From: a candidate division KSB1 bacterium
GTDB lineage: Bacteria; Zhuqueibacterota; Zhuqueibacteria; JANLFK01; Oleimicrobiaceae
Assembly: GCA_024655945.1 (NCBI GenBank)
Contig: JANLFK010000009.1
Location: 1-64,000, forward strand
DNA length: 64,000 bases
Direction of reading: 5' to 3'
Positions 4,865 to 25,371 of the stretch are shown here, one piece after another (the stretch's first letter is position 1; every line of letters starts with the position of its first letter). The position numbers and the translations under genes are program-made. The notes under the pieces are model-generated. The model saw only the letters and a list, made by a program, of their open reading frames with translations. It was not told the origin of the DNA and searched no databases.

Positions 4865-7800
4865 ATGAGAATGGTGCACCGCTGTGTGCGTAATGCTGCG
4901 GTCGGCCTCGTGCTGATGACTCTGCCAAGTCTCGTCGGGGCAGGCACCACCGGCAAGATCGCAGGCATGGTTCTGGACGCCGAGACCGGCGAGCCCCTGC
5001 CTGGGGCAAACATCACCTTGGAAGGGACCACAATGGGGGCCGCCACCGACGGCACCGGGCGGTACGTGGTGCTCTTTGTGCCGCCTGGCACTTATACCTT
5101 GCGCGCCAGCATGATAGGCTACTCGCCGATGCGCGTGGAGAACGTGCGCGTCTCCATCGATCTGACCACAGAGATCAACTTCAAGCTGCGGAGCACGGTT
5201 CTGGAATTAGGCGAGGCGGTCACGGTGGTAGCCGAGCGGCCCATGGTGGTCAAGGACTTGACCGCGAGCACGGCCGTCATGGGATCTGAGGAGATCAAGG
5301 CCCTGCCGGTGACCGAGGTGCACGAGGCGTTGGCGCTGACTGCCGGGTTGGTGCGCGATGCCGGCGGCGGGCTGCACATCCGCGGCGGCCGCTCCGGCGA
5401 GATAAGCTACTGGATCGACGGCATCCCGGTCACTGACGTCTACGACGGGGGCACGGTCGTTGACGTGAACAAGAACATGGTGCAAGAGCTGCAGGTGGTA
5501 AGCGGGGCCTTCAATGCTGAGTACGGACAGGCCATGTCGGGGATTGTCAACATCTCCACCAAGGAAGGTGGGAATACGTTTGGCGGCTCCTTTACCACCT
5601 ACCTTGGCGATCACCTGAGCACGCACGACAATATCTTTCCGCACATCAAGAACATCAACCCGGTGGCCATTCGCAACGTGGAGGGCAGCTTGGAAGGGCC
5701 CATATGGCGCGACAAACTCTCCTACTTTGTGAACGCGCGCTACATCTACTTTGACGGCTGGCTGTTCGGACAGCGCCGCTACCGGCCGCATGCGGTGACC
5801 GCCAGTGTCGTCCTGCCGGAGCAGGTGGTGGAGCAGGTGTTCCCAGAGTTTTTGGAGGAAAGCAGGGTGGTGGGACCTGGCCAGCGGGGCTTCCAGTACG
5901 TCCTGGGCACGAATGTCCTGCTGGACTCGGTCCTGACGCAGAATGAGCTCCGCGCGCGCAACATCAGTGCCGACTCGTTTGCGGTCTATTACCAGAAGCT
6001 GCGTGCCTCCCACCAGGGTGCGCGCGGCGATGGCGCCTTTGTGCCCATGAACTGGAACCGCAAACTCTACTTGCAGGGCAAGCTCATGTACAAACCGGTG
6101 CCCTGGCTGCAGCTGGCGTACAATGTGATCCTGGACGATGTCGACTACCAGGACTATCAGCGCGATTACAAGTGCAACCCCGACGGTCAGTTGCAGCGGT
6201 TTAGAACAGGACTGACCAACATCGTCAAGGTCACCCATCTCGTCTCCTCGAAAACTTTTTATACGCTCGGCCTCTCGCAGTTCAGCAAGGCGTACAAGAG
6301 CTGGACCTACGAAGACCCCCATGACCCGCGCTATGTCCATCCCGACATCGGTTTGCAAGGGGCCTACAGCTTCAAGACGGGTGGCACCGACAACGCGCGC
6401 TTCGAGCGGCGGACGGATACCTACTTAGCAAAATTCGATCTCACCAGCCAGGTGACCGCCACCCACCAGCTCAAAGGGGGGCTCGAATTCCGCAAGCACA
6501 AGGTCTACCAGCGAGACGTGACCCTGCAACCGGTTCTCACGCAGTCAGCCATCGATCCGCTCTTCGAGAGTCCTTTCATCGCCACCCGCGTTCTGCCTGA
6601 TTCGACTATCTACGCCAGCCAGTACACGCATCGCCCCACCGAGTTTTCCGCCTATCTGCAGGACAAGATGGAGTTCAAGAACTTTATCGTCAACGTGGGC
6701 GTGCGCATGGACTACTTCGAGCCGGATGGCGTGGTGCTGACTGATGAGACCGACCCGACCATCTACAATCCCATCAAGCCGCAGAACCGCTATCACGACT
6801 GGGGGAGCGATGGCCGGCCAGGAACGCACGACTTGGACGGCACCGAGGGGAACGGCATCTGGGACGCCGGCGAGCCGGCCGTCACGCTGGCGGAGCGGCA
6901 GCAGTATTGGTACAAGAAGGCCAGCGCCAAGGTGCAGGTGAGCCCAAGGCTCGGAGTGTCTTTCCCTATCACGGACAGGGGTGTGATTCACTTCTCCTAC
7001 GGGCATTTTTTCCAGATTCCCCGGTTCGAGCGCTTGTACCAGAACCCGGATTTTGAGTTGGGAACCGGCACAGGGAACCTGGGGGTGATCGGCAACGCCG
7101 ACCTGAAGCCTGAGCAGACGGTGAGCGGCGAGATCGGCCTGCAGCAGCAACTGACCGAGGACCTGTCGCTGCATGTGACCGGCTACTTCCGCGACGTCCG
7201 CAATTTGGCCGGGACCCAGGCCCAAGAGATTGTGCTGTTCGGCGGGTTTGGGCGGTATAGCAAGCTGGTCAACAGCGACTTTGGCTTCATTAGAGGCATC
7301 ATCGTGTCGCTGAACAAGCGTTTCTCGGGTGGCCTGGCCGCCTCGCTGGACTACACCATGCAGATTGCCAAGGGGACCAACTCCGACCCGGAGCAGGCAC
7401 GCAACGCCCTGAGCGGCGGTGCATTGCCGGAGGTACAGCTCACCCCATTGGACTGGGATCAGCGGCACACCTTGAATGGCACGGTCTCATATGCTGGGCG
7501 AGGGTACGGGGCAAGCCTCATCGGGCAACTGGGGAGCGGCCTGCCCTACACGCCTCGCTCTACTGCCGACATCTCGACCCTGCTGACCAACAGCCAGCGC
7601 AAGCCGGGTAACCTGAACATCGACTTGCGAGCGTACAAGGAGTTCCGGCTGCGGCCCGGGGTGCTCACCCTGTTCGTGCGGGTGTTCAACGTTCTGGACA
7701 GGCTCAATGAAGTGAATGTTTACAACGACACCGGACGTGCGGGCTTTACCTATGACGAAGCGGTAGCCAGGTCAAGCAACCCTCTGCAGCTGGTGAACAC

Positions 7801-7891
7801 CCTGGAGGACTGGTTTACCAATCCCACGCATTATTCGGAACCCCGCAGGGTAGAGGTAGGGCTGACCTTCGACTTTGGCCAGGCGCGTTAG
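4865..7891 (+). CDS. TonB-dependent receptor, module 1 (SusC-like class)
   Basis: Outer-membrane active transporter of about 1,008 residues. I prefer ATG 4865 (GGAG 9 bases upstream) to GTG 4850. A signal peptide ends near LPSLVGAG. A carboxypeptidase-regulatory-like domain follows (about 25-105, GKIAGMVLDAETGEPLPGAN). Next are the plug (about 115-230, with LHIRGGRSGEISYWIDGIPV and AEYGQAMSGIVNISTKEGG) and a long beta-barrel to the C-terminus ending VGLTFDFGQAR. An acidic turn around nt 6798-6885 (GSDGRPGTHDLDGTEGNG) matches motifs in the next gene. It follows the LacI gene in the same direction, with no intervening promoter seen, and has a paralogue at 15889. A glycan substrate is inferred from the locus. 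Confidence 0.9.
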   Translation: MRMVHRCVRNAAVGLVLMTLPSLVGAGTTGKIAGMVLDAETGEPLPGANITLEGTTMGAATDGTGRYVVLFVPPGTYTLRASMIGYSPMRVENVRVSIDLTTEINFKLRSTVLELGEAVTVVAERPMVVKDLTASTAVMGSEEIKALPVTEVHEALALTAGLVRDAGGGLHIRGGRSGEISYWIDGIPVTDVYDGGTVVDVNKNMVQELQVVSGAFNAEYGQAMSGIVNISTKEGGNTFGGSFTTYLGDHLSTHDNIFPHIKNINPVAIRNVEGSLEGPIWRDKLSYFVNARYIYFDGWLFGQRRYRPHAVTASVVLPEQVVEQVFPEFLEESRVVGPGQRGFQYVLGTNVLLDSVLTQNELRARNISADSFAVYYQKLRASHQGARGDGAFVPMNWNRKLYLQGKLMYKPVPWLQLAYNVILDDVDYQDYQRDYKCNPDGQLQRFRTGLTNIVKVTHLVSSKTFYTLGLSQFSKAYKSWTYEDPHDPRYVHPDIGLQGAYSFKTGGTDNARFERRTDTYLAKFDLTSQVTATHQLKGGLEFRKHKVYQRDVTLQPVLTQSAIDPLFESPFIATRVLPDSTIYASQYTHRPTEFSAYLQDKMEFKNFIVNVGVRMDYFEPDGVVLTDETDPTIYNPIKPQNRYHDWGSDGRPGTHDLDGTEGNGIWDAGEPAVTLAERQQYWYKKASAKVQVSPRLGVSFPITDRGVIHFSYGHFFQIPRFERLYQNPDFELGTGTGNLGVIGNADLKPEQTVSGEIGLQQQLTEDLSLHVTGYFRDVRNLAGTQAQEIVLFGGFGRYSKLVNSDFGFIRGIIVSLNKRFSGGLAASLDYTMQIAKGTNSDPEQARNALSGGALPEVQLTPLDWDQRHTLNGTVSYAGRGYGASLIGQLGSGLPYTPRSTADISTLLTNSQRKPGNLNIDLRAYKEFRLRPGVLTLFVRVFNVLDRLNEVNVYNDTGRAGFTYDEAVARSSNPLQLVNTLEDWFTNPTHYSEPRRVEVGLTFDFGQAR

Positions 7892-7918
7892 GAAAGCGGT
7901 TTAGCGCGGAGAGTGATT

Positions 7919-10900
7919 ATGAGGAGCCGATTCGGCATAGTGGCAGCGCTGCTGGTGGTAGGAGCGCTGGCAATGGCGGACAGGGCGCAGGCGCAGAGCG
8001 GCCGTCAGTACCGTCGCGACGCGGTGATGCGCGGCAACCTGGTGAAGACGGTCTTTGGCAATTGGGGCGTCATCGGACAGCCGGCGCAAAGAGGGAAACG
8101 CGGGGCCTGGATCTACGACGACAACGGCTATATCGGTGACGTGAGCCCGTTGGTGGGCGCCGAGGTTGTTGCCCAGGGCAAGACGTTCCATTCGGTGGTC
8201 GTCTGTCCAGTGGACCGGCCCACCACGCAACACGAGCTATCGCCTTCCGGCACCTACTGGGGGTTCGAGCCGGTGGCCGGGTACTTCAACGAGTACTCGC
8301 AAGGTGTCGCGCTCTACAGCGACCCCCGCTCGTGGCCGCCGGTGTGGCCAGACAAAATGAATGACCCCTTCGACCCCGGCTGGCCAGGCTCGTGGAACGG
8401 TTTTTTTGGCAAGACAACCACGGCCTCGGAAGAGTGCTTCTTTGTGCTGGATGACCAGAACGACGAGGAGTTCAACGTCGCGCAGTACAACCGCTGGGGC
8501 GTGGCCTTCAAGCCGGACGCGCGCAACCCCAATCGCAACGGCCTGGGCCTGCAGGTGAAAGTGCGCGGCATGCAGTGGTCGGACTTTTTGGCCCAGGACT
8601 GTATCTTTTGGCTCTACGAGATTACCAACACCAGCACCACCGACTACAGCAAGGTCGTCTTCGGCATGTTGGTGGGCACTTATGTGGGCGTCACTTCAAC
8701 AGAAGATTATCGCGAATATGATGACGACTACTCGTTCTTCGATGTGGAGAAGGACCTCACCTACACGGCGGACTTTGATGATGATTGCAGCCGAAACCCA
8801 CGTTGGACCGGGCCGGTGGGAGTGGTCGGCTATGCTTTTCTCGAAAGCCCAGGCAACGGATACGACGGCATCGACAACGACGGTGACGCCGACCAGCATC
8901 CGTTCATCCCAGCCACTGGGCCGTTCTTTGTGCAGGCCGACTTTCAAAAGCGCGTCATCCGCGCGGGCGACAAGGTGGTGGTGATCGACGACGACTACCA
9001 TCGCACGGTGGTAACGGTACCCCCGCGCGATACCACCTTCGTCACACGCGGCGCCGCCAGAGGGGTGCCCTACCTGGTGCAGGTCAAGCCAGGCGTGACC
9101 GAGCTGGTGGAAGGCAATGTGGTCATCCAGGACGGCTTGGAGGTGGTCAACCCAAATGCCTACGATGGCATTGACAACGACCTCGATGGGCTGATCGACG
9201 AGAACTACTACCTACACTACTACCAGATTCGCAAGGATCGCACGGGCAAGGTGCTCATCGACCGCTTCAATCCGGTGCGGCACAAAGACTACATCACCGG
9301 CTTGGGCCTGAACGACCCCCTCATCGATGAGAAGCGGGACGATGGCATCGACAACGATGGCGATTGGAATGCCGAATATGACGATGTAGGAGCCGATGGG
9401 GTACCAGGCACTAACGATCCGGGCGAGGGCGATGGCCGGCCGACTCCTGGCGAGCCGAATTTCGACCAGACCGACGTGGATGAGTCTGACCAGATCGGCC
9501 TGACGAGCTTTGAGTACTTCACGCCTGCCCGTGCTTTCTCCATGGCTGACGACGAGGACCTCTGGCGGCGCCTGGCACCCGGCTATTTTGAAGTCCCCTC
9601 CTCGATCGTGAACAACAAACCGGAGCGGGGCGAAGACGGCGACTTTATCTACGGCTCCGGCTACTTCCCCCTGCGCGCGGGTGAGACGCAGCGTTTCTCA
9701 CTGGCGCTGGTCTACGGAGAGGGAGGCGGCCCGCAGGTGGACATCGCTGACCTGCTGAAGAACCGCGAGACGGTGCAAAAGATCTACAACAGCGACTACC
9801 GTTTTCCGCCGCCACCGGAGAAGCCCATGCTCACCGTGGTCCCAGGCGACGGGAAAGTCACCCTCTACTGGGACCGGCGCGCCGAAGAGTCCGTAGACCC
9901 GGTGCTAAAGGTGAAGGACTTTGAGGGGTACAAGATCTACCGCGCCACCGACCACAACTTCAACGAGGTGTTCGGCGTCACCGATGCGGACGGCCGACCC
10001 ATCCAGTACAAGCCCATTGCGCAGTTTGACCTGAAGAACGGCATCAAAGGCTACTTCCGCGGAAGTGCAGAGCTCTTCCAGCAGAGCCATGGCGCCTCCT
10101 TCTACCTGGGCAACGATACCGGCCTCGAGCACAGCTACGTGGACTATGACGTGGAAAACGGGCGGCGCTACTTCTACGCCGTGGTGGCCTACGACCGGGG
10201 CGATGAGACTTTAGACATCTTCCCGAAAGAGAACGACAAACGCATCGATGTGTTGCCCTCCGGTGAGGTGCGGACCTATCGCAACACGGCGGTGGCCATC
10301 CCCAATGCAGCGGTGGCAGGCTATGTTCCCCCGCAGGGGAGTATGCTGGTGCCGCCGCTGTCCAGCGTCGGTACTGGCAAGCTCTTCTACGTGGTCGTCG
10401 ACGAGCAGGCACAGACCGGGCACACCTACCGCGTTGAGTTCCTGGACACGGGGAACGACGGCGTCGACAACGATGGCGACTGGAATGCGCTCACCGATGA
10501 TGTGGGTTCCGACGGCAAGCCGAACACCGACGATCCCGATGGCACAGAGGGCAATGGGCTGCCTGACCCGGGCGAACCTAATGTCGACGCCCGGGACCCC
10601 GAAGAGTATTTCGTGCCCACCACCACCTTCTACTCGGTGCAGAAGGTGACTCCCGTGACGAGCACCTTTGTGGCGCGCGACACGTTCTCGGTGGCGTTGC
10701 CCAACACGCACCTTGTTGCCGGGACGATTGTGGTCAAGGACGGCAGCGGCAGGGAGGTCGCACCATCGAAGTACGAGCTGGACCTTGTACGCGGCCGCAT
10801 TCGTGGACGCCAGTCAGGCGACTTGCTTTATGGAGAAGCCTATTCTGTTACCTACCAGTACCATCCGGTCTATCGCAGCCCGTTCATCGAGGGCAGCCCG

Positions 10901-11782
10901 TGGGTCGGCGAGACCAAGGACACCGACATCTTCGACGGCGTGCGCTTAGCGTTCAACAATGATTGGAGGGTGAGGCTGGACACGCTCGCTTCCCGCTGGA
11001 GTCACCCGGAGAAGGGATACAACTTCAAGCTGACCATTGTCGACACCTACTTTGGGGTGGAGAGGCTCATGGGCTACTGGCACCCGGCGGACTACCGCAT
11101 CGAGTTCGCCGATGGGGTAATTGACACCTCGCTGGGTATCCCCAAGTATTACGTCGATCCCATCCCGGTGAACTTTAAGGTGTACAACCTCACCGATGGG
11201 CGCTACATCGACTTTGTGTTTGTCGACATGAACGGCGACGGCAAACTGACGCCCTTTGACGAGCTTATCCTTGTCGAAAACGGCCTGCAGGGGGAACAGC
11301 TGTACACTTACGACATCACCTTCACGAGCCGCACCGGCCAGGCTTTCGTCTACGGCGCCGGGGACACACTGACCATCGTGACCAGGAAGCCATTCCGGGC
11401 AGGAGATGTTTTCGAGTTCACCACGGAACGGCCCGAGCTGAGTGCTGAGCAGGCGGCGCGGGAGTTGGAACGGGTGAAGGTGGTGCCAAACCCGTACGTG
11501 GTCGCCACTGCCCATGAGCTTCCCTTGCCGCCGGCAGTGGTCAGTGGGCGCGGTGAGCGGAAGATGGACTTTATCCACTTGCCGGCGCGGGCCAAGGTGC
11601 ACATCTTCACCTCCCGTGGTGAGCACGTGGTCACGTTGGAGCACGACGGCAACATCCACGATGGGGCCGTGTCGTGGAATCTCAAGACCAAGGAGAACCT
11701 GGACGTAGCCGCGGGCATCTACTTTTACGTGGTCGAGTCCCCTGTTGGCAAAAAGACGGGCAAGATTGCGATTATCAAGTAG
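7919..11782 (+). CDS. Large secreted partner protein with FN3-like segment and VPNPY C-terminal domain, module 1
   Basis: About 1,287 residues. ATG 7919 is preferred to GTG 7913 because GGAGAG lies 5 bases upstream. A signal peptide ends near DRAQAQ. No lipobox is present. The N-terminal half shares blocks with the paralogue at 18404 (SDPRSWP, FFVLDDQNDEEF, FWLYEITNTS). DGIDNDGD-type acidic repeats occur near nt 8870, 9170, 9345 and 10460, resembling calcium-binding loops. An FN3-like segment lies around nt 9820-10210 (DGKVTLYWDRRAEESVDP). The C-terminus (VKVVPNPYVV to KKTGKIAIIK) resembles a T9SS-type sorting domain. It follows the receptor by 27 bases and precedes the PorV-like gene. I do not recognise a named family; a surface glycan-binding role replacing SusD is only a hypothesis. 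Confidence 0.7.
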   Translation: MRSRFGIVAALLVVGALAMADRAQAQSGRQYRRDAVMRGNLVKTVFGNWGVIGQPAQRGKRGAWIYDDNGYIGDVSPLVGAEVVAQGKTFHSVVVCPVDRPTTQHELSPSGTYWGFEPVAGYFNEYSQGVALYSDPRSWPPVWPDKMNDPFDPGWPGSWNGFFGKTTTASEECFFVLDDQNDEEFNVAQYNRWGVAFKPDARNPNRNGLGLQVKVRGMQWSDFLAQDCIFWLYEITNTSTTDYSKVVFGMLVGTYVGVTSTEDYREYDDDYSFFDVEKDLTYTADFDDDCSRNPRWTGPVGVVGYAFLESPGNGYDGIDNDGDADQHPFIPATGPFFVQADFQKRVIRAGDKVVVIDDDYHRTVVTVPPRDTTFVTRGAARGVPYLVQVKPGVTELVEGNVVIQDGLEVVNPNAYDGIDNDLDGLIDENYYLHYYQIRKDRTGKVLIDRFNPVRHKDYITGLGLNDPLIDEKRDDGIDNDGDWNAEYDDVGADGVPGTNDPGEGDGRPTPGEPNFDQTDVDESDQIGLTSFEYFTPARAFSMADDEDLWRRLAPGYFEVPSSIVNNKPERGEDGDFIYGSGYFPLRAGETQRFSLALVYGEGGGPQVDIADLLKNRETVQKIYNSDYRFPPPPEKPMLTVVPGDGKVTLYWDRRAEESVDPVLKVKDFEGYKIYRATDHNFNEVFGVTDADGRPIQYKPIAQFDLKNGIKGYFRGSAELFQQSHGASFYLGNDTGLEHSYVDYDVENGRRYFYAVVAYDRGDETLDIFPKENDKRIDVLPSGEVRTYRNTAVAIPNAAVAGYVPPQGSMLVPPLSSVGTGKLFYVVVDEQAQTGHTYRVEFLDTGNDGVDNDGDWNALTDDVGSDGKPNTDDPDGTEGNGLPDPGEPNVDARDPEEYFVPTTTFYSVQKVTPVTSTFVARDTFSVALPNTHLVAGTIVVKDGSGREVAPSKYELDLVRGRIRGRQSGDLLYGEAYSVTYQYHPVYRSPFIEGSPWVGETKDTDIFDGVRLAFNNDWRVRLDTLASRWSHPEKGYNFKLTIVDTYFGVERLMGYWHPADYRIEFADGVIDTSLGIPKYYVDPIPVNFKVYNLTDGRYIDFVFVDMNGDGKLTPFDELILVENGLQGEQLYTYDITFTSRTGQAFVYGAGDTLTIVTRKPFRAGDVFEFTTERPELSAEQAARELERVKVVPNPYVVATAHELPLPPAVVSGRGERKMDFIHLPARAKVHIFTSRGEHVVTLEHDGNIHDGAVSWNLKTKENLDVAAGIYFYVVESPVGKKTGKIAIIK

Positions 11783-11817: not shown

Positions 11818-12843
11818 ATGCGAGTGGCACGTAGTGCGTGGTTGATAGGCGTGGCAGCCCTGGCGTTGGCTGCGACAGGTACGACATGGGCCCAGACGAA
11901 AGTGGGGACCACTGCGGTGCCCTTCTTGGGCATCAGTGTGGGCCCGCGGGCGACCGGGATGGGTGGCGCCTTTGCCGCCGTGAGCAACGATGCGACAGGC
12001 CTGCACTACAACCCCGGCGCCCTTTCCCAAATGCCCAATTCGCAACTGGTGGTGGCGCACACCCGCTGGCTATTGGGCACCAACCTCAATTGGGTAGGCC
12101 TGAGCCTCAAGCTGGATGCCGACAATGCCATTGGCCTGAGCTTCACCCATCTCGACTACGGAGAGGAGGAGGTGACCACGGTCTACCTGCCGGAGGGGAC
12201 AGGCGAGCGCTGGGGGGCAACCGACATGGCTGCCGCACTGAGCTACTGCCGGAACCTCACCGATCGCTTTTCCATTGGCGGCAGCGTGAAGTACATCCAG
12301 CAGAAGCTGTGGAACGAAACGGCCAGCGCGCTCGCCTTGGATGTAGGGCTCCTGTTTGTCACGCAGTTCAAAGACCTCAGGCTGGGGATGAGCATCAGCA
12401 ACTTTGGCACGGATATGCGCCACGACGGCCGCGACCTCCTGCACAGGGTTGACCTGGACCCCGAGCACATCGGACACAACGAAACCATCGTGGGCAAGCT
12501 CAAGACCGAGAGTTGGCCTCTGCCGCTGTTTTTCCGCGTCGGTCTGGCCATGGACGTGCTTCGCCAACAGAACTACCGTCTCACCGTGGCGGCCGATGCC
12601 TTCAGGCCGAGCGACAACACCGAAACGGTGAACGTGGGCGCGGAGTTCGAGCTGTTCAGGCTGCTGACCGTGCGCGGCGGTTACAAATCCCTGTTCAGAA
12701 GCAGCAGCGAAGAGGGGTTGACTGCCGGCGTGGGGGTGCGCCTGGCGCTGGACCCAAGGCTGGCCTGGCAGTTTGACTACACCTTCGCGGACTTTGGGCT
12801 TTTTGAGCCGGTGCACATGGTTGGCGCCTCGGTCACCTTCTAA
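11818..12843 (+). CDS. PorV/UPF0164-like outer-membrane protein, module 1
   Basis: A 341-residue protein with a signal peptide ending at TTWAQT. The N-terminal block (VGPRATGMGGAFAAVSNDATGLHYNPGALSQ) is typical of the PorV/PorQ (UPF0164) family of FadL-like beta-barrels. The rest is alternating beta strands ending in an aromatic residue (GASVTF), as expected for an outer-membrane barrel. In T9SS bacteria PorV shuttles CTD cargo from the translocon to the attachment machinery. Placement between two genes for T9SS-tailed proteins fits a dedicated shuttle. The equivalent in module 2 is the same length. Confidence 0.8.
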   Translation: MRVARSAWLIGVAALALAATGTTWAQTKVGTTAVPFLGISVGPRATGMGGAFAAVSNDATGLHYNPGALSQMPNSQLVVAHTRWLLGTNLNWVGLSLKLDADNAIGLSFTHLDYGEEEVTTVYLPEGTGERWGATDMAAALSYCRNLTDRFSIGGSVKYIQQKLWNETASALALDVGLLFVTQFKDLRLGMSISNFGTDMRHDGRDLLHRVDLDPEHIGHNETIVGKLKTESWPLPLFFRVGLAMDVLRQQNYRLTVAADAFRPSDNTETVNVGAEFELFRLLTVRGGYKSLFRSSSEEGLTAGVGVRLALDPRLAWQFDYTFADFGLFEPVHMVGASVTF

Positions 12844-15608: not shown

Positions 15609-15672
15609 GGGGCCGCTGCTCACCAGCAACGCATGAAGACCCGAGGGGAGAAGGCCCATGGCTTTCTCCCCT
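13632..15672 (+). repeat. Long direct repeat, copy 1 (2,041 bp)
   Basis: Matches 23331-25371 at a constant offset of 9,699 bases. It runs from GTGCGTGTCACT through the stop codon and the following hairpin. In the line-by-line reading I saw one substitution (GCC versus ACC, Ala/Thr near the C-terminus). Sequences outside both ends are unrelated. Confidence 0.95.
15645..15671 (+). terminator. Strong hairpin after module 1
   Basis: GGGGAGAAGGCC and GGCTTTCTCCCC form a 12-bp stem (one G-T pair) around the loop CAT. No T-run follows, so it may stabilise the mRNA 3' end or act with Rho rather than terminate alone. It lies inside the repeated segment. Confidence 0.6.
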
Positions 15673-15804: not shown

Positions 15805-15888
15805 GAAGGCGGGCGTTATCGCGCTGCGGCATGACATCGAAGTGAGCGCTTGATTTTTGGGAGCAGTCTCAGTTTTTCTGGAGGAACC

Positions 15889-18354
15889 ATGAGGGTGCGG
15901 AGGCGTTTGCTGTGTGTCCTGTGCTTGGCGATAGCCTCGCAGCTCCTGGCCGGCACGACGGGAAAGGTCACCGGCGTGGTGAGGGACAAGGCCAGCGGCT
16001 TGCCCCTTGCGGGCGCAAGCGTGCTCGTCGAAGGAACCATGCTGGGCGCGGCCACTGGTTCAGATGGCACCTTCTTCATCATCAACGTGCCGCCAGGGAG
16101 CTATTCGCTGACCGCGCAGATGATGGGCTACAGCCGCACCACCGTCGCTGGGGTGCGGGTAAACGCCGATCTCACGACCAGGGTTGACTTTGCGCTGCCG
16201 GAGACCACCATAACTCTGCCGGAGGTCGTGGTCACGGCGGAGAGGCCTTTCATCCAGAGGGATGTGACCAGCAGCATCGCGGTGGTTGACCAGGAACGCA
16301 TAGACGCCCTGCCGGTGCAGAGCTTCACCGAGGTGCTGGCCACGCAAGCCGGAGTAATCGCCCGAGGAAGTAGCCTCCACATTCGCGGTGGGCGCGGCAA
16401 CGAGGTCGGGTACCTGGTCGACGGCATGTATGTGGAAGATCCGCTGTTCGGGGGTCTGGGTACCAGGGTCAACAACGACGCCATCAAGGAGCTCACCCTT
16501 CTGAGCGGCACCTTCAGCGCAGAGTACGGGGACGCACTGAGCGGCATTGTCAACATCGTCACCAGGGAGGGCTCTGATGTTGTTTCCGGCAGTATAGAGA
16601 CGCGAACGAGCCAGTTCGGGATAGCCCCTTATCATGACTACGGCGAGTGGCGTACCAACGGCTACGTGAGCGGCCCGCTGCTGAAGAGCAAGCTCTCCTA
16701 TTTTCTTTCCGGCGAACAGAATCAGCGAGACAGCTGGTTGCCTTTTGGCTATCGGCGAGAGGCAACGGGCTTTGCCAAGCTGACAGCGCGCCCGGCCCCT
16801 TGGCTGAAAGTCGCCATAAGCGGTCGCTACAGCGAGACCAAGAGCCAGCCGTACAACCACCTCTGGAAATACATCCCTGAACAGTACACCCGCACGCGGT
16901 CACATAGTCGACAGGCCATCTTGTCTTTGACACATTCGGTCTCTGCCCGGATGTTCTACGATGTGCGGCTGTCGGTGTTCAGTCAAGACTACTACAGCGG
17001 GGTTGACAAGGACACCTCGGAGTATGTGCCTCCTGCAGTGCGGCAGTATGTGCCGTGGGCTGGCAACGGCTACGAGTTCTACAGCAAGGCGGATCCCTTG
17101 CAGCTCACCAAGAGCAAGACGCACACCCTCGACCTGAAGAGCGATTTCGTGTGGCAGATCGGCCAGCGCAACGAGCTAAAGTCGGGCTTCGAGGTCAAGC
17201 AACACCATCTCCGCCTATTCGACATCTATGACCCCACCAGGGATTTTCCGTACATCAACGACTACAATCAGAAACCGCTGGAGGGCTCGGCGTACCTGCA
17301 GGACAAGATCGAGTACCCCTACCTGACGGTGAACATCGGCCTGCGTTTTGACTATGCCAATGCGCGCACCAAGTTCCGCGCTAGCCCGTTAGACCCTGCC
17401 AGCGAGCAGAAGGTCAAGCCCAAATGGCAGCTCAGTCCGCGTATCGGCATCGCTCATCCGGTGAGCGAGCGCACCAAACTACACTTTGCCTATGGGCACT
17501 TTTTCCAGAATCCGGAATACCAGTACTTCTACGAAAACCGGCAATACGATTTGAACGTGCGTGAGCCTCTCTTCGGGCAGCCGGACCTTGATGCCGAAAA
17601 GACGGTGGCCTACGAGACCGGGCTCGCCCACCAGTTCAGCAATGCGTTGGCCGCCCACGTGACCGCCTATTACAAGGACGTGACCGGACTGATTGGCACG
17701 CACTACTACATGCCCTACTTCTCCGGCAGATATGTGGGATACACGCTGTACGTGAACGAGGATTACGCGAACATCAAGGGTTTTGAGGTCAATGTGGAGT
17801 ACCGGCCAAAGCCGGCAGTGCAAGGCTCGTTGACTTACACCTACTCGGTGGCCAAAGGGAGTGCCTCTTCCGAGACAGAGCAATATCCTGGCACGCAGGA
17901 ATCCACGCTGCTCTACTTTTTGGACTTTGACAAGACACACGTGCTCAATGCCTCTCTCAGTGCCCGCTTTGGTACAGGAGAGGGCCCAGAACTCCTGGGG
18001 GTCTACCCCTTGGCCCATACTGATTGGAGTTTCATGCTGAGCGCCAGCAGCGGTTTCCCTTACACGCCTTCCGGGCGCGATGTGGGTTTCGTGATCAGGA
18101 ATTCGGCGCGCATGCCCTCCAACTACACGCTGGACTGCGAGGTCGGGCGAACGTTTCCCCTGATGGGCGTGAAGGTGCGGCTCTTTGTCGAGACGCTAAA
18201 CCTGACCAACTTCAAGAACGTCGTCTACGTCTATCCTGATACCGGAGAACCGGATTTTACGCGCCAGGGAAATCATTCCCTGGAATATATGCGCGACCCA
18301 AGCAACTATGGGCCACCGCGCCGCCTGCGTATCGGACTTGGCGTGCGGTTGTGA
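15889..18354 (+). CDS. TonB-dependent receptor, module 2 (SusC-like class)
   Basis: About 821 residues. ATG 15889 is chosen because TGGAGGA lies just upstream; an earlier TTG at 15850 has no such site. The signal peptide ends near ASQLLAGTTG. A carboxypeptidase-regulatory-like domain (GKVTGVVRDKASGLPLAGAS), a plug (LHIRGGRGNEVGYLVDGMYV, AEYGDALSGIVNIVTREG) and a barrel follow. It shares the plug layout and the barrel motif YGHFFQNPEYQYFYEN with the module 1 receptor (YGHFFQIPRFERLYQN). It lacks that receptor's acidic GSDG...GEP insertion and is about 190 residues shorter, suggesting a different ligand size. Its own promoter lies 85 bases upstream. Confidence 0.9.
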   Translation: MRVRRRLLCVLCLAIASQLLAGTTGKVTGVVRDKASGLPLAGASVLVEGTMLGAATGSDGTFFIINVPPGSYSLTAQMMGYSRTTVAGVRVNADLTTRVDFALPETTITLPEVVVTAERPFIQRDVTSSIAVVDQERIDALPVQSFTEVLATQAGVIARGSSLHIRGGRGNEVGYLVDGMYVEDPLFGGLGTRVNNDAIKELTLLSGTFSAEYGDALSGIVNIVTREGSDVVSGSIETRTSQFGIAPYHDYGEWRTNGYVSGPLLKSKLSYFLSGEQNQRDSWLPFGYRREATGFAKLTARPAPWLKVAISGRYSETKSQPYNHLWKYIPEQYTRTRSHSRQAILSLTHSVSARMFYDVRLSVFSQDYYSGVDKDTSEYVPPAVRQYVPWAGNGYEFYSKADPLQLTKSKTHTLDLKSDFVWQIGQRNELKSGFEVKQHHLRLFDIYDPTRDFPYINDYNQKPLEGSAYLQDKIEYPYLTVNIGLRFDYANARTKFRASPLDPASEQKVKPKWQLSPRIGIAHPVSERTKLHFAYGHFFQNPEYQYFYENRQYDLNVREPLFGQPDLDAEKTVAYETGLAHQFSNALAAHVTAYYKDVTGLIGTHYYMPYFSGRYVGYTLYVNEDYANIKGFEVNVEYRPKPAVQGSLTYTYSVAKGSASSETEQYPGTQESTLLYFLDFDKTHVLNASLSARFGTGEGPELLGVYPLAHTDWSFMLSASSGFPYTPSGRDVGFVIRNSARMPSNYTLDCEVGRTFPLMGVKVRLFVETLNLTNFKNVVYVYPDTGEPDFTRQGNHSLEYMRDPSNYGPPRRLRIGLGVRL

Positions 18355-18403: not shown

Positions 18404-21202
18404 ATGCGAAGAACCCTTCTCTTTGTTCTGCTTTCGATCTTGGTGAGTGCCTCGCTTGCTGGGGCGCAACAGCTTTCCGGAGGGAAAGACAAAGACAGGG
18501 AAGCTGCAAACGACTTGGCAAAGCCTTTGGGTATCAAGGATCGGGCTGCCGGCATTCACAACGCCAGCAACATCGGCCTGTTTTTCGAGAACCGAGGCAA
18601 GCTCTACCCAAGGCGGTTGAGCCAGGGTCCCAGCGGCGAGTACCCCTACGGCAGCGGACGGCACTACATCTACCGCATCAACCCGTTCGTCGGTATTCCT
18701 GGCAATGTGATTCAAGGACGCTTCACCACCAACGAGGAGTGGGAAGCCGTAGGTGGCTACCATAACCCGGCGTTCGCAAAAGTGGCGATGAGCGACGACC
18801 CATCGTCGTGGCCGGCGACAGGTTGGCCGGTGCGGGACGCCGCCGGCAACCCCATCATCAAGTCTGACCAGGACGCTTTCTGTGTCTACAGTGACAGCAA
18901 TAACACGGTGAAGCGGCTCGGGGTACATATCGCCCAGACCAGCTACGCCTTCGGTCTGAAGTCCTTAGAGGACATGATCTTTTTTGCTTTTGACGTAATC
19001 AACAAGGGCGAATCTGACTTAGATTCGCTCTATTTCGCCCTCTATGTGGACATCGACGTCGGCAACGTCTCTGGCGGCGACCCGGAGTACGCAGACGACC
19101 ACGTGGCCTTTGAGGAGTCGTTGAACCTGCTTTACTTCTACGACGATGGCTACACCTCGGAATGGGTGGGCAATACTACCGGCTACTTCGGCTGCGCCTT
19201 CTTGAAGACTCCGGTGGTGGATGGGAAGCAGCTGGGAGTGACCGATTGGCACTACAACCTCTATGATGATGACATGGACCTGGACACGGTACAGTACCGT
19301 ATCATGAGCTCGGATCCGCGGCTGTTTAGTTCTCCATTGGGCAACCGGTATTTCCACGTGGGCAACCTGCCGACCTTGCACTACGACGATCCAAACACAA
19401 TTCCCGCCAGTGGGCTGGACGTCGTCGCCACCATGAGTTCTGGGCCGTACACGCTCAAGGTGGGAGATACGCTCACCTTCATGACGGCCATCGTCGCCGG
19501 GAAAGATCTGGGGCAGCTGCTCTCCAATACGCTCATGGCGCTGAAAGCGGCAGAACTCAATTTCGAGATGGCAAAGCCCCCTTCGCCGCCCGCGCTTACT
19601 GCCGTTGCTGGCGATGGCCGCGTGACGCTCTACTGGGACAATCGGCCGGAAAGCGAGCGGGATCCGTTTTCCAACCGGCTCGATTTTCAGGGCTATCGGC
19701 TCTACAAGTCCATCGACGGCGGGGTGCATTGGGACCAGATCGACCGCAACGAGAACCCCAATGTAGGCCCCGACCCCGTACCTCTCGCTGAGTTTGATGT
19801 GATAGACGGTATCGGGCTCGACACGGGCCTGCAGTACAGCTACGTGGACACCAACGTCGTCAACGGTTTCGAGTATTGGTACACGATCACCAGCTATGAC
19901 CAGGGCGACTCCACGGTGGAGAGCCTGGAATCGCCGCGGGGCAACACCTTGGCGGCCATCAACACGGTGGCGGCCACGCCGCGCAGCGAGCCTTTGGACC
20001 TGGTACCAGGCGCTGTGGGCTCGATAGAGCACGCTGGGCCTTCGGACTTTTTCCTGGCGGTGAGCTTGGCAGATGCGCGGCAATGTGGCGGATTTCAGTA
20101 TGAGGTGAGCTTCCCCCCGGTGGCGAGAATTGTCAGGGGCAATCTCAATACGCAGGCCTTGGTGACCGTGGTGGATGCAGCGCTCGTTTCCGGCGACGTT
20201 TACGGCGTTACCTTTGACGATGCAGGGCGGCTCCGTATACGCAACCAGACGCAGGGGCGCGATGTTATCGTGGGACATGCCTATGTCTCCGGGGAGACTG
20301 TCCAGTTCGAAGGCCTGGCCTTGACCCTTGTTGACCCGGATCCGGACGCACCGCCCACGCTGGTGCCGGAGCCGGGGGACTCGTTGGTCATTCAGACGGG
20401 TATCCGCGCCCAGCGTTCGGATGGAACGGAGGTACTCTCGCCCCGCATCGTGGAGTGGAAGCGCTGGCTGGCCACCACGGATGGCCTGCTCCTGCAAGTC
20501 ATTCCCTCGGGGTACTTCGACCCCGTAGCCCGCGTCAGTGGAGCCGCCATGGTGGAGCTCACCCCGACAGTGGTGGACAAGTCGAAGATCATCGAGATGA
20601 TTTACACCCTGAGCTTTGCCGATCCGGTGACGAGTGCGGGTGGCAAGCAGCGTGCGGTCCTTCAGGTGACCAACTGGAGCGGGCAGGTTGTGGCGCGGAG
20701 TGATTCGCTGCCCAGCGGAGGGAGCGTGGCCTTCGGAGGAATCGCTGTGCGCATCGTCTTTGACGAAAAGAGTGCACCGGGGGCAGGCAATGTCTTCCGC
20801 ATTCGCACAAACATTCCCGATCCACCGCGCGCCAGCGACCGCTACACGTTTGCGGTGCAGGCGCCTTCGACTGGAGGCCGGCTGCGCGACGAGGACCTGG
20901 CGAAGGTCAAAGTGGTGCCCAATCCCTACGTGGTTTCGTCGCTATTTGAACCAGAGTTTGGCGAGCTGCGGCGCGAGCCCCTTCGCCAGATCCAGTTCAT
21001 TCACCTGCCCGCAGAGTGTACCATCCATGTCTTTACCCTGGATGGCGATTTGATCAAGACGATCCACCACACCAACGGCACTGGGACGGAGAGCTGGGAT
21101 CTACGGGCTGAGGGGGGACGAGAACTGAGTTCCGGTGTGTACCTGTACATGGTGAGCACCAAGACGGCACGGCATGTCAGCCGTTTCGCGGTGATAAAGT
21201 AG
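18404..21202 (+). CDS. Large secreted partner protein with FN3-like segment and VPNPY C-terminal domain, module 2
   Basis: About 932 residues from ATG 18404, with GAGGAA 7 bases upstream. The signal peptide ends near SLAGAQQ. It is a paralogue of the protein at 7919. Shared blocks are SDDPSSWP, the acidic DQDAFCVYSDSNN segment, MIFFAFDVINKGESDLDSLYF, and the FN3-like part (DGRVTLYWDNRPESERDPF, nt about 19610-19920). The C-terminus (VKVVPNPYVV to SRFAVIK) resembles a T9SS-type sorting domain. It lacks most of the DGIDNDGD acidic repeats, which explains the shorter length. The catalytic role, if any, is unknown. Genetic linkage to the receptor and PorV-like gene suggests a surface partner of the receptor. 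Confidence 0.7.
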   Translation: MRRTLLFVLLSILVSASLAGAQQLSGGKDKDREAANDLAKPLGIKDRAAGIHNASNIGLFFENRGKLYPRRLSQGPSGEYPYGSGRHYIYRINPFVGIPGNVIQGRFTTNEEWEAVGGYHNPAFAKVAMSDDPSSWPATGWPVRDAAGNPIIKSDQDAFCVYSDSNNTVKRLGVHIAQTSYAFGLKSLEDMIFFAFDVINKGESDLDSLYFALYVDIDVGNVSGGDPEYADDHVAFEESLNLLYFYDDGYTSEWVGNTTGYFGCAFLKTPVVDGKQLGVTDWHYNLYDDDMDLDTVQYRIMSSDPRLFSSPLGNRYFHVGNLPTLHYDDPNTIPASGLDVVATMSSGPYTLKVGDTLTFMTAIVAGKDLGQLLSNTLMALKAAELNFEMAKPPSPPALTAVAGDGRVTLYWDNRPESERDPFSNRLDFQGYRLYKSIDGGVHWDQIDRNENPNVGPDPVPLAEFDVIDGIGLDTGLQYSYVDTNVVNGFEYWYTITSYDQGDSTVESLESPRGNTLAAINTVAATPRSEPLDLVPGAVGSIEHAGPSDFFLAVSLADARQCGGFQYEVSFPPVARIVRGNLNTQALVTVVDAALVSGDVYGVTFDDAGRLRIRNQTQGRDVIVGHAYVSGETVQFEGLALTLVDPDPDAPPTLVPEPGDSLVIQTGIRAQRSDGTEVLSPRIVEWKRWLATTDGLLLQVIPSGYFDPVARVSGAAMVELTPTVVDKSKIIEMIYTLSFADPVTSAGGKQRAVLQVTNWSGQVVARSDSLPSGGSVAFGGIAVRIVFDEKSAPGAGNVFRIRTNIPDPPRASDRYTFAVQAPSTGGRLRDEDLAKVKVVPNPYVVSSLFEPEFGELRREPLRQIQFIHLPAECTIHVFTLDGDLIKTIHHTNGTGTESWDLRAEGGRELSSGVYLYMVSTKTARHVSRFAVIK

Positions 21203-21217
21203 ACAACAGAGGAGTTC

Positions 21218-22243
21218 ATGCGCATGCAGAGGACTCTTACCCTATTTGCGGCGGTGAGCGTTGCGGCAATGCTCGCGCTCGCCCTGCCTGGCCCCGCGCA
21301 GGCCCAGAATCCTAATTTGGGCACCGCTGGGGCGCAGTTTCTGCAGATTCCGGTCGGAGCACAGGCGGTGGGCATGGCAGGGGCTTACCTGGGGATGGCC
21401 GAGGACGCTGTGGCCCTGTTCTGGAATCCGGCGGGCATCACCTACGTGGAGCGGCAGGCGGTCCACTTCTCGCACCTGCAGTGGTTCGCAACCGTCCACA
21501 TGACCTCTGTGGCCTATGTGCTCAACCTTGAGCGCTGGGGAGTCTTTGGTGTCTCCGCAAACTCCTTAGGCATGGACAAGATGGAGGTGACCACCGAGCT
21601 GCAGCCAGAAGGGAGCGGCGAGTTCTGGGATGCGCAGGACGTCTCGTTGGGGGTGACGTACGCCCGCGGATTGACCGACCGCATGTCGGTGGGCGTGACC
21701 GCCAAGTACGTGCGCCAGAGGATCTGGCACGAGAGCGCCAGCGGCGTGGCCTTCGATGTGGGTACGCAGTACCGGCTGGACTTCCGCCAGCTGGTTATCG
21801 CCATGGCTATGACGAACTTTGGCGCCGACCTGCGCTTGGATGGTCGCGACCTCGATGTGGTCCACGACCGCAATGTCTCGATCCCTCGCAACCGCCTCAC
21901 CCCGGCACGGCTCCAGACAGAGACCTATCCGTTGCCGTTGCACTTTCAGGTGGGCATTGCCTTCGATGTGTACCGTTCGCCTTTCCTGGCCTTGCGGGCA
22001 GCCGTGGATGCGGCACACCCGAACGACAACAACGAGCGGATCAATCTCGGTGCGGAGCTGGCCCTGCGGCAGGTCGCCTTCCTGCGGGCGGGGTATCGCT
22101 ACAACTACGATGAGGAGGACTGGACGCTGGGGGCGGGAGTGCGACTACCCTTGGCGCGCTCGCGGGTGCGCGTGGACTATGCCTACTCGTTTTTCAACCT
22201 TCTGGATGACGTGCAGAGGTTCTCCCTGGGGATAGAGTTCTGA
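21218..22243 (+). CDS. PorV/UPF0164-like outer-membrane protein, module 2
   Basis: A 341-residue protein starting at ATG 21218 after GAGGAG, 15 bases past the previous stop. The signal peptide ends at GPAQAQ. The family block VGAQAVGMAGAYLGMAEDAVALFWNPAGI is clear, as is the second motif LTDRMSVGVTAKYVRQRIWHESASGVAFDVG, parallel to the module 1 copy. The C-terminus ends in Phe (RFSLGIEF), as in outer-membrane barrels. The likely role is a T9SS cargo shuttle or a related surface-export function. Two such genes in 10 kb, each beside T9SS-tailed partners, argue for dedicated pairs. Confidence 0.8.
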   Translation: MRMQRTLTLFAAVSVAAMLALALPGPAQAQNPNLGTAGAQFLQIPVGAQAVGMAGAYLGMAEDAVALFWNPAGITYVERQAVHFSHLQWFATVHMTSVAYVLNLERWGVFGVSANSLGMDKMEVTTELQPEGSGEFWDAQDVSLGVTYARGLTDRMSVGVTAKYVRQRIWHESASGVAFDVGTQYRLDFRQLVIAMAMTNFGADLRLDGRDLDVVHDRNVSIPRNRLTPARLQTETYPLPLHFQVGIAFDVYRSPFLALRAAVDAAHPNDNNERINLGAELALRQVAFLRAGYRYNYDEEDWTLGAGVRLPLARSRVRVDYAYSFFNLLDDVQRFSLGIEF

Positions 22244-22478
22244 GGTGGTGCATGTGCCGGTGCGGGCGCCTGGGTGCTGTCCACACACGGGCGGATGGTG
22301 TGCAGCGGTTGTCCATGGGGGCAAAATGGGGAAAGGAGGTGATGTGGAGAGCGCTGGTCTTGGAGCAGGGGGCAGAGTTCGTGGCAACGGCGAGCAACAA
22401 CAAGGCGAATGGCGAATGAGCAGGGCAAGCGTGCGCGAGCATGCGAAGATCGGTTGCAGTAGCCGAGGGAGGTAGAAA
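22244..22478. other. 235-bp leader with a second 12-base anti-Shine-Dalgarno complement
   Basis: AAAGGAGGTGAT occurs again at 22332-22343, about 135 bases before the true start, in the same place as in module 1. The ATG overlapping its end opens a 25-codon frame ending at TGA 22417-22419. The rest of the two leaders shows little similarity, so this element stands out. Confidence 0.45.
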
Positions 22479-25307
22479 ATGGAAAAGCGGGTTTTTCTCT
22501 TGGTCGCCTTGGTCGCTGTGCTGATGATGGCATCCCAATCGTTTGCACAGGCCAGGGGCGAGACAGGGGCAGTGGGATTGTATCTGACCAACGCGGGGCA
22601 GATTCGACTCTACGCGCCGAGTAACTCAGGGACGCGGCATGTGGGTCGCATCACAATGTCGGCAGGCCTCTCCATGGACGCCGTGTATGACTACGTCCAG
22701 GATGCCGACAAGGTAATCAACGCCTACAAGCTTGCCACACCCACCAAGGCCGACGTGGAGCTGTACACGGAGGCCGACAATAGCTACTCCAATCTGCCGC
22801 CGAACGTGCACGTGCGCGTGCACCTCTATGGCTGGAACAATGACAAGTTCTTTTTGGCGCGCTTTGCGGTGGTCAACATGGCTGCAGAGACCGTGCAGCT
22901 CTACCTGGGTGCCACGGTAGTGCCGATGGTTGGCGCAGGATACGACGGTACTTGCGAATGGAATGCCACCCACCGCATCGCCTACAACTATCGCGGCACC
23001 GATCCCCCACACCTGGGCGTGGCGCTGGTTTCTGGGGAGCCGTATTCCTACAAGATCCGTGACTGGCACGACTACTCGCCAGATCCCAACTCGGACCAGG
23101 CGCACGACTCCACGCGCTTCAAGATGCTGACCGAGACGGGCTTTGACGGTCCGCTGACGTTCGGCGTAGACGGGGCAATCTACAATGTTAACGCTGGTGC
23201 CTACACCCTTGCCCCCGGCGACTCGGCGGTTCTCACCTACGCGGTAGTGTACGGCGACGGGCTGGCCGATCTGCTCGCCAATGTGCAAGCAGCCAGGGCG
23301 CGCTATCGTGCTGCATTCCCCCCATCTCGCGTGCGTGTCACTTTTGTGGCGAACACGGCGACGGTGCCGGACACGTTGGGGCCGAGCTCGACGGTGCAGG
23401 TGCGAGGCAGTGGTGGGCCGTTGACGTGGAGTGGGGCATCGCCGGTGTTTTTGCAGAATGTGGGTGGCGACTACTGGAAGGGGACGGCGGAGTTCACTCC
23501 TGGGGAGCGGGTGGAGTTTAAGTTTTACACCAATGCGCACGACACGGTGTATGGGGGAGCGGAGTGGGAGCACCAGGGTTGGGAGGGGGATGTGGCGACC
23601 GGCAATCGGGTGTTGGTGGTGGGGGATGCGGACACGACCTTGCCGTTGCAGTTTGTGAATGGCTGGTTGTGGGGTGCGGAGCAGTATGCGCGGCCGTGGG
23701 TAGAGGAGCCGAACAGTTTTGTGGTATGGGTGCGGGTGAATGTGCAGGGGTGGGAGGATTTCAACCCGGCGGCGCAGGTGATAGGGTTGCGGGGTTCGAA
23801 CAATGTGGATTGGGGTCAGACGGGTGAGATTTCGTGGGGGCGGACGTATCCGTTGGTGCGGGAGAGCGACCATGTGAACATGGGTTCTCGGCAGTACAGT
23901 GGGGGGTATTTCTACAGTGGTGCGGTGCATGTGCCGGATCAGTATGCGGGGCATGGGATAGAGTTCAAGGTGGTGGTGCACCGTGCGGGTGCGGCGTTGG
24001 ATGAGGATTGGGGCAATTTGGTGTACAATCCGAGTTTGCAGAATCACGTGGACTTGAGTGGGGTGGACACGACGGTGCACTGGTTTTGGTTTGACAACAA
24101 GCGGCCGCGCGCGGTGGAGCATCGGGATCAGGTGGTGGTGACGTGGGTAGCGGATTTGGGGCAGGCGATTGCGAATTTTGGTTTTGCGCATGGGGACACG
24201 TTGTTGGTGCGCTCGGGGTATTTTGGCACGGCGGCGGGGGTGCGCACGGTGCAGATGCGGCGGCTTGGGTTTACCTCGCGCTACACGGCCACCGACACGG
24301 TGGTGGCCACGATAGGGGGGAAGTTGGACTACCAGTACTACAAGGTGAAGAAGGGGATAGAGTATCGTGAGATTTACTATAACTTTTACTATGCTGGGGA
24401 GACGGTGGGGGAGGCGGAGCGGCGGGTGGTGGATCCGATAGGGGGGGCGGTCATCACGGTGGAGGATGTGGTGGCCAGCAAGTCGGACATACACCGGATG
24501 CCGTTGTTCCGGAACACGGCGGTGGTGGCGCGGCCGGTGACGGTGACGTTCACCTGTGATGCGCGGCCTGCGGTGTACCAGGTGTTGGCGGGGAGCACGT
24601 TGCGGGACATTCAGGGGACCTTGCATGTGACCTCAGCCGATCAGGTGGTGGCGTGGGGTTTGGCGATGAACGGGCCGGCCACGGGAGACTGGGGTACCTG
24701 GGGTGCGGGCTTGATGGCGGATCCGGCGCACCGCATGTACGATGACGGCACGCATGGTGACCTGGTGGCGGGGGACACGGTGTACACGTTGGTGTGCTTT
24801 TACTCGCCTGATTCGAACGATGTGGTGGGTCAGGAGTTCAAGTTTGGGGTAGGGGGAGGCGACAATGAGGGTGGTTATGGGAACAACCACATCGAGAACA
24901 TCGACGACAGTGTGCCGGCTTCCATGGTTGCGTCGCAGTTTGGCAGCATTGATCCGGTGTTTTACAGTGCGTGGGATTATGACAATCAGCGGCCGAGGAC
25001 GGGGGTGGAGGTGGTGAGTCGGGAGGTGCCGAGGGAGTATCGGTTGGGCAACTACCCGAACCCGTTCAATCCGGAGACGGAGGTGCGGTACGAGGTGGCA
25101 CGGGCGGGGCGCGTGCGGGTGGAGGTGTACAACCTGCTTGGGGTGCGGATAGCGCGTTTGGTGGATGAGGAGCAGATGCCCGGGACCTACCGTGTGCGGT
25201 GGGACGGCCGCGATGAGCTGGGACGCCAGGTGGTTTCCGGGGTGTATGTGTGTCGGCTGGTGGCTGGTGAGGTGGTGAAGACGACCAAGATGGTGTTGGT
25301 GCGCTAA
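22479..25307 (+). CDS. Secreted protein with starch-binding-like repeats and T9SS domain, module 2
   Basis: A 942-residue protein from ATG 22479 with GGGAGGT upstream. It has an ordinary signal peptide (ends MASQSFAQ) and no lipobox, unlike the module 1 counterpart. Residues about 25-284 are a distinct N-terminal region (TGAVGLYLTNAGQIRLYAP and so on) somewhat like the N-terminal parts of the large secreted partners. From VRVTF at nt 23331 to the end it is essentially identical to the 13074 protein: CBM-like beta domains, then the T9SS tail with YPNPFNPETEV. The single difference seen is Thr for Ala near the end. A glycan-binding surface role is inferred. Confidence 0.75.
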   Translation: MEKRVFLLVALVAVLMMASQSFAQARGETGAVGLYLTNAGQIRLYAPSNSGTRHVGRITMSAGLSMDAVYDYVQDADKVINAYKLATPTKADVELYTEADNSYSNLPPNVHVRVHLYGWNNDKFFLARFAVVNMAAETVQLYLGATVVPMVGAGYDGTCEWNATHRIAYNYRGTDPPHLGVALVSGEPYSYKIRDWHDYSPDPNSDQAHDSTRFKMLTETGFDGPLTFGVDGAIYNVNAGAYTLAPGDSAVLTYAVVYGDGLADLLANVQAARARYRAAFPPSRVRVTFVANTATVPDTLGPSSTVQVRGSGGPLTWSGASPVFLQNVGGDYWKGTAEFTPGERVEFKFYTNAHDTVYGGAEWEHQGWEGDVATGNRVLVVGDADTTLPLQFVNGWLWGAEQYARPWVEEPNSFVVWVRVNVQGWEDFNPAAQVIGLRGSNNVDWGQTGEISWGRTYPLVRESDHVNMGSRQYSGGYFYSGAVHVPDQYAGHGIEFKVVVHRAGAALDEDWGNLVYNPSLQNHVDLSGVDTTVHWFWFDNKRPRAVEHRDQVVVTWVADLGQAIANFGFAHGDTLLVRSGYFGTAAGVRTVQMRRLGFTSRYTATDTVVATIGGKLDYQYYKVKKGIEYREIYYNFYYAGETVGEAERRVVDPIGGAVITVEDVVASKSDIHRMPLFRNTAVVARPVTVTFTCDARPAVYQVLAGSTLRDIQGTLHVTSADQVVAWGLAMNGPATGDWGTWGAGLMADPAHRMYDDGTHGDLVAGDTVYTLVCFYSPDSNDVVGQEFKFGVGGGDNEGGYGNNHIENIDDSVPASMVASQFGSIDPVFYSAWDYDNQRPRTGVEVVSREVPREYRLGNYPNPFNPETEVRYEVARAGRVRVEVYNLLGVRIARLVDEEQMPGTYRVRWDGRDELGRQVVSGVYVCRLVAGEVVKTTKMVLVR

Positions 25308-25371
25308 GGGGCCGCTGCTCACCAGCAACGCATGAAGACCCGAGGGGAGAAGGCCCATGGCTTTCTCCCCT
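23331..25371 (+). repeat. Long direct repeat, copy 2 (2,041 bp)
   Basis: Partner of 13632-15672. Codon use inside the repeat favours G at third positions (GTG, TTG, GGG, CGG), unlike the C-favouring genes around it. Identity stops sharply at CCCCT, after which the amylase region begins. Confidence 0.95.
25344..25370 (+). terminator. Strong hairpin after module 2
   Basis: Exact copy of the hairpin at 15645-15671, carried by the long repeat. An ATG at 25332 just before it is therefore unlikely to start the amylase. Confidence 0.55.

Follow-up and report, generated by a model that had tools for sequence, protein, structure and literature searches.

In this genome the conserved unit around the large SusC-like receptors is a triad of adjoining genes, which encode a TonB-dependent receptor (TBDR), a partner protein of 930-1,290 aa with a T9SS-type tail (PART) and a barrel of the PorV/PorQ family (PORV). 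It is not the four-gene cassette proposed in the initial annotation, which had placed a T9SS-tailed CBM-like protein (T9A) in the core; T9A proves to be a variable passenger. Such triads may do the job of the SusC-SusD pairs of gut Bacteroides. The gene content and order of the triad, its conservation, the class of the PART tail, the grouping of PORV and its PorV fold, the covariation among the members and the alpha-glucan context form the basis of the reading preferred here. According to it, a T9SS-exported PART is probably carried and anchored by its own PORV beside the TonB receptor, in a SusD-like role, with alpha-glucan as the ligand at this locus.

Gene organization of the locus

The window, that is, the whole 64,000-nucleotide stretch of DNA that was analysed (contig C9, positions 1-64000), belongs to a 3.94-Mb genome in 26 contigs and carries, on the + strand, eight genes in the order TBDR1, PART1, PORV1, T9A1, TBDR2, PART2, PORV2, T9A2 (Table 1). 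All eight were confirmed, as was the earlier description of four gene types following one another in the same order twice, and both PARTs are VVPNPY-tailed. The LacI-family gene on the 5' side is likely the regulator of the locus, and on the 3' side follow genes for a GH13 alpha-amylase with a T9SS tail, an esterase, an SSF symporter, an ABC-type sugar importer and a GH31 enzyme. A third and smaller TonB receptor (748 aa) at 59311-61557, with no adjoining PART or PORV and an amidohydrolase next to it, provides a non-triad contrast.

At the protein level the two units are 39% (TBDR), 32% (PART) and 39.5% (PORV) identical, and with these values of 32-40% the two triads are old paralogues. A recent tandem duplication of the whole unit was considered and rejected, near-identity being confined to the T9A block, and the tandem duplication claimed at the outset survives, in the recent sense, only for the 3' part of T9A.

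Table 1. Features of the locus and its surroundings (window positions)
Feature	Position	Strand	Basis
LacI-family regulator	3769..4812	+	Pfam LacI + Peripla_BP_3
TBDR1, large SusC-like TonB-dependent receptor	4865..7891	+	CarboxypepD_reg, Plug, PF00593, PF25183
PART1, partner: FN3-like segment, DGIDNDGD segments, VVPNPY C-terminal domain	7913..11782	+	aligns with 22 other PARTs of its own genome
PORV1, PorV/PorQ-family barrel	11818..12843	+	NF033709, 198 bits
T9A1, passenger of triad 1: lipobox-like signal, DUF4961, type A T9SS tail	13074..15608	+	Pfam, TIGR04183
2,041-bp block, copy 1	13632..15672	+	direct comparison with 23331-25371; single mismatch at 15585
TBDR2, SusC-like TonB-dependent receptor	15850..18354	+	CarboxypepD_reg, Plug, PF25183
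PART2, partner with VVPNPY C-terminal domain	18404..21202	+	alignment with 57 relatives
PORV2, PorV/PorQ-family barrel	21218..22243	+	NF033709, 218 bits; PorV fold match
T9A2, passenger of triad 2: own N-terminal part, C-terminal part as in T9A1, type A tail	22479..25307	+	TIGR04183, 28 bits
2,041-bp block, copy 2	23331..25371	+	direct comparison
T9SS-tailed GH13 alpha-amylase	25332..28472	+	PF00128, 133 bits; Por_Secre_tail
ABC sugar importer: binding protein and two permeases	32870..35958	+	SBP_bac_8, BPD_transp_1 twice
GH31 (alpha-glucosidase family)	38093..40582	+	Glyco_hydro_31 domains, 409 bits

Conservation of the triad

The genome holds 37 PorV-family matches and, with neighbourhood genes called by a simple gene caller, 19 contiguous TBDR-PART-PORV triads (a manual count; the strict automatic filter passed 18), together with three variants, of which one contains an inserted gene and two are rearranged. 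Both a PART and a PORV are found near 20 of the 32 plug-bearing TBDRs and near three TBDRs that have no Pfam plug match; the remaining TBDRs are mostly smaller. At locus L042 (9391-12449) the PART is split into frames of 947 and 81 aa, which may reflect a frameshift or an assembly error, and the receptor lies downstream of PORV rather than upstream.

Conservation of the order in relatives had been set beforehand as a check, and the order is conserved. PART is present in 69/69 genomes of the phylum, and the exact order TBDR-PART-PORV was found at 35 of 40 in-phylum loci (37 genomes), these loci being high-scoring PART matches picked regardless of their neighbours; four of the remaining five (L173, L178, L179, L183) have one extra gene and the last (L174) is unlabelled by the gene calls. 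Across phyla, 84,980 species genomes were scanned with a 6-member PART alignment, an 18-member alignment being too diverse for a contig scan, and loci were chosen by PART alone. At least 80 loci were recovered; among the matches listed, 47/80 are exact triads and 16/80 have TBDR-PART without an adjoining PORV, many of them at a contig end. The matches listed cover at least Neomarinimicrobiota, Ignavibacteria, Calditrichota, KSB1, Stahlbacteria, WOR-3, Krumholzibacteriia, Eisenbacteria, Hydrothermota and basal Bacteroidota (Rhodothermaceae, Balneolaceae), and among them the full order was seen in Neomarinimicrobiota, Ignavibacteria, Calditrichota, KSB1, Krumholzibacteriia and basal Bacteroidota. 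PART was also detected, at 1e-30, in 47/99 sampled genomes of the GTDB phylum to which the Balneolaceae genome belongs.

If TBDR and PORV each made up about 1% of genes, this order would be expected by chance at about 1 in 10,000 PARTs. The median gaps over 96 triads are 23 nt between TBDR and PART and 17 nt between PART and PORV, and the position of PORV directly 3' of PART supports the earlier suggestion that export of the surface partner is built into the uptake operon. The gene after PORV has, in most relatives, no labels common to the triad and is variable in length, and the four-gene module was set aside on this ground. A literature search, with subscription papers and preprints outside its scope, returned no report of a TBDR-PART-PORV triad or of private PorV-family carriers coupled to TBDRs.

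The partner tail and the T9SS

The genome bears a T9SS, with an SprA translocon (SprA_N, 153 bits) and PorU/PorV components: two PorU-like genes (344 and 375 bits, below the cut-off of 420) adjoin PorV2-like genes, and a near-canonical PorV on contig C13 reaches 239 bits against a cut-off of 250. On contig C5 (76611-111000; L061, L034, L036), SprA, a PorU-like sortase and a PorV2-like gene directly adjoin two tandem triads.

Among T9SS substrates, those of type A share one carrier and those of type B have private SprF-type carriers (PMC12618676, PMC12635249, PMC10994853). Against the type A model TIGR04183 (cut-off 23), PART2 scores 19.7 bits and PART1 gives no match; a PART-tail model gives 125 bits for the tail of PART1 versus 18 for type A, and 93 versus 22 for that of PART2. 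The genome's own PARTs, scored with models from other genomes, have a median of 78 bits for the PART tail versus 16 for type A, and its other tailed proteins a median of 69 bits for type A versus 13 for the PART tail. The PARTs are separated from type A tails in 23/23 cases, three apparent exceptions being duplicate or split PARTs, and on these scores the PART C-terminal domains are a class distinct from type A signals. A PDB search with the PART profile matched the tail to PorZ (1e-4) and weakly to PorU (0.03), and an AlphaFold model of PART2 of moderate confidence (pLDDT 68, pTM 0.56) has a strand-rich tail and no visible SusD-like fold. Matches of the PART N-terminal fold to a super-beta-sandwich were weak (TM ~0.2) and were set aside as evidence.

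In Porphyromonas, PorQ anchors PorZ and PorV anchors PorU (PMC5562754), and these pairs may be taken as a direct precedent for the anchoring of PART by PORV: a tailed surface protein is held there, and would be held here, by a barrel of the PorV/PorQ family, and the PART tail is related to those of PorZ and PorU. However, the Porphyromonas pairs process cargo and occur once each, whereas one genome has many triads, each coupled to a TonB receptor, and no match to a sortase domain was found in PART. Similarly, the triad shares with SprF/PorP and the type B CTD adhesins (PMC12618676, PMC12635249) an arrangement in which each substrate gene is followed immediately by a carrier gene, the mark of a dedicated carrier-substrate pair and present at 35 of the 40 loci, and perhaps also a carrier that stays bound as an anchor, as described for SprF/PorP and proposed for PORV. 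Unlike type B substrates, which neighbour a PorP/SprF-family carrier, PART neighbours a barrel of the PorV/PorQ family (PorV_fam), its tail resembles PorZ and not type B, and a TonB receptor is added. SprF further has a twin-cysteine motif, whereas PORV has no conserved cysteine, and a disulfide link to the gliding track, as for SprF, was discarded on that account. The sole conserved cysteine of the triad, there being none in TBDR either, lies in the PART tail (LPxxCTI, 79% of 95; C872 of PART2) and is absent in PART1.

The barrel and the general PorV

Both barrels exceed the cut-off of 90 bits of the PorV/PorQ family model NF033709 (Table 1). PORV1 and PORV2 score 77 and 60 bits against the PorV model NF033710 (cut-off 250) and 91 and 99 bits against the PorQ model NF033711 (cut-off 220), in both cases higher against PorQ than PorV. 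The sampled triad PORVs match PorV_fam throughout (60/60), and a model of PORV2 (pLDDT 93) has as its best PDB match the PorV of a substrate-bound T9SS translocon (8gl6_F, TM 0.72).

The grouping of these barrels was likewise a check set beforehand, and the triad PORVs stand apart from the remaining PorV copies in the genome: in a tree of 108 proteins the branch between the genome's eight non-triad PorV-family proteins and all triad PORVs has support 97/84, several non-triad rows being long branches. On the scores and, with this reservation, on the tree, the reading of the triad PORV as the general PorV was rejected. It shares with the general PorV, the carrier of substrates with type A CTDs, a barrel family and a fold, but PorV serves all type A substrates, whereas some 20 extra PORVs each lie beside one distinct-tailed substrate and branch apart from other PorVs. 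The BamG family model gave weak matches in 15/60 triad PORVs (best 2.6e-8), and PORV2 also matches BamG in BAM structures, a hint that PorV-type and BAM-associated barrels may be of common origin.

Covariation within the triad

Covariation of the PorV-like protein with the receptor, also chosen in advance as a check, was found even among the paralogues of one genome. Distance-matrix correlations were 0.86 for TBDR-PORV, 0.78 for TBDR-PART_N and 0.71 for PORV-tail, with 0/300 permutations as high, and 0.57-0.65 for within-genome paralogues, with 0/5,000 permutations as high; nearest neighbours agreed in 12/18 cases for TBDR-PORV and 11/18 for tail-PORV. Partial correlations were highest for TBDR-PORV (0.67 overall, 0.36 within genome) and low for PORV-tail (0.16, 0.25), and therefore tail recognition is not singled out. 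The covariation may be co-inheritance alone; much of it is explained in this way, so that it is compatible with contact but does not prove it.

These results bear on an alternative in which PORV is a private but recycled carrier, PART is a binding protein or adhesin that is either free or anchored separately, and the receptor has no more than its regulation in common with them, forming no complex. The general PorV acts in this manner, carrying type A substrates and then being recycled (PMC5562754, PMC12618676), and co-regulation alone can conserve operons. However, substrate and carrier genes are here 1:1 and adjoining, as for SprF-type anchors and not for recycled carriers, and no other pair covaries as strongly as TBDR-PORV; this alternative is rather unlikely.

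The receptors and the absence of SusD

TBDR1 and TBDR2 are TonB-dependent receptors, each with a PF07715 plug and a barrel recognised by PF00593 or PF25183. Against the SusC/RagA model TIGR04056 (cut-off 368) they reach 75 and 95 bits, over the N-terminal part only. The genome-wide search for SusD/RagB used PF07980 alone and gave no match; by Pfam no SusD was found in the 64-kb window, nor in PART1 or PART2, and at these scopes the earlier claim that no SusD homologue is present holds. The triad is not a SusCD member, because two defining features were tested and neither was found. PF07980 is also absent from 29/38 triad-bearing genomes.

SusCD is the textbook glycan uptake route of Bacteroidota. 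The triad resembles it in the SusC-like N-terminal domain and plug, in the gene for a large surface partner directly downstream, and in the numerous paralogues per genome beside glycoside hydrolases. It differs in having no SusD family member, in receptors that fall far below the SusC cut-off, in a partner with a T9SS-type tail where SusD is a lipoprotein, and in the inclusion of a PorV-family barrel.

Both receptors match, besides plug domains, the barrel family PF25183, which we take to include Oar-like proteins. This accords with a second alternative, in which the receptor serves secretion or assembly rather than uptake and aids the export of PART or T9A, much as the TonB-dependent Oar of Myxococcus is reported to be required for PopC secretion (PMC6434023). 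For proteins tailed in this way a T9SS is present in the genome, and orthologues sit with LacI, GH13 and sugar importers; a role of this kind is very unlikely.

The ligand

A LacI gene is also found 5' of the orthologous triads at L147, L162, L163, L181, L182 and L185. In other genera, the orthologues of triad 1 are still accompanied by a LacI regulator, by GH13 enzymes and by T9SS-tailed proteins that carry CBM_20 (below cut-off) or Ig_N_CWD1 domains, which makes an alpha-glucan or maltodextrin the most likely ligand at this locus. Other triads of the genome lie beside GH38, GH88, GHL6, GHL10, GxGYxYP, CBM9 and CBM4_9 genes, several have no carbohydrate link, and 'glycan' may therefore not hold for all triads. 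The glycan-uptake reading of the initial annotation is thus supported for the locus in the window and possibly not valid for every triad.

Proposed mechanism and implications

In the preferred reading the triad would be one outer-membrane uptake station. The T9SS translocon would export PART via its C-terminal domain, and PART would leave the translocon on its own PORV and not on the general PorV. PORV would then stay on the uncleaved tail and anchor PART at the surface, as in PorQ-PorZ and PorV-PorU, and the PORV-PART pair would lie beside the TonB receptor, with PART covering or feeding the receptor as SusD does SusC, before TonB drives import. At this locus, the GH13 with its T9SS tail would cut alpha-glucan on the outside, the T9A proteins would grip it, and it would be passed to the ABC importer and GH31. 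By its place and purpose the triad would resemble SusCD, and by its mode of delivery PorQ-PorZ or SprF-SprB. The weak PORV-tail partial correlation, the lack of a SusD-like fold in PART and the presence of SusD in 9/38 triad-bearing genomes count against this explanation. It is scarcely credible that PORV imports a second ligand as a FadL-like channel and is related to the T9SS by ancestry only: FadL and TodX are the next fold matches of PORV2 (TM ~0.5), but PorV and PorQ come closest in both fold and family, and PORV follows a T9SS-type-tailed protein almost everywhere.

An uptake station of this kind would add a third arrangement beside type A, with one common PorV, and type B, with private SprF-type carriers. 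In phyla that are known mainly through metagenomes (Neomarinimicrobiota, Calditrichota, KSB1, Ignavibacteria, Krumholzibacteriia) it would also stand as an alternative to SusCD, and many proteins now annotated as 'PorV/PorQ family' or 'T9SS sorting domain' with no role would gain one that can be tested. More broadly, it is conceivable, if somewhat doubtful, that the triads amount to a third T9SS pathway, with C-terminal signals of a separate class, some 20 private carriers of the PorV/PorQ type in each genome and permanent complexes that replace SusCD as the main nutrient uptake device across much of the FCB group. The triad poses the question of whether nutrient uptake and protein secretion can be built as one machine.

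The T9A passengers

T9A1 and T9A2 both pass the type A model TIGR04183 (26 and 28 bits; cut-off 23). They have different N-terminal parts and 2,041 bp in common with one mismatch (Table 1). In a sister species (G018), the two T9A genes do not differ from each other over the first 110 nt of the T9A block, a contig end limiting the comparison to this length, and the block of that species is 90.3% identical to that of the present genome. The block is under concerted evolution in each lineage, most simply by gene conversion. It has been homogenised separately in the two species with the same left boundary (L147 end; L199:7793-7903), which suggests continuing gene conversion between two surface proteins with unlike N-terminal parts. 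With T9A2 as query, 132 matches were found in the genome, nearly all to the tail. Finally, a lipobox-like signal stands at the start of T9A1 (LVSGC) and of its sister-species homologue (LISGC; L147:10152-10817), so that T9A1, with a type A T9SS tail as well, oddly bears two surface-anchoring signals in one protein.
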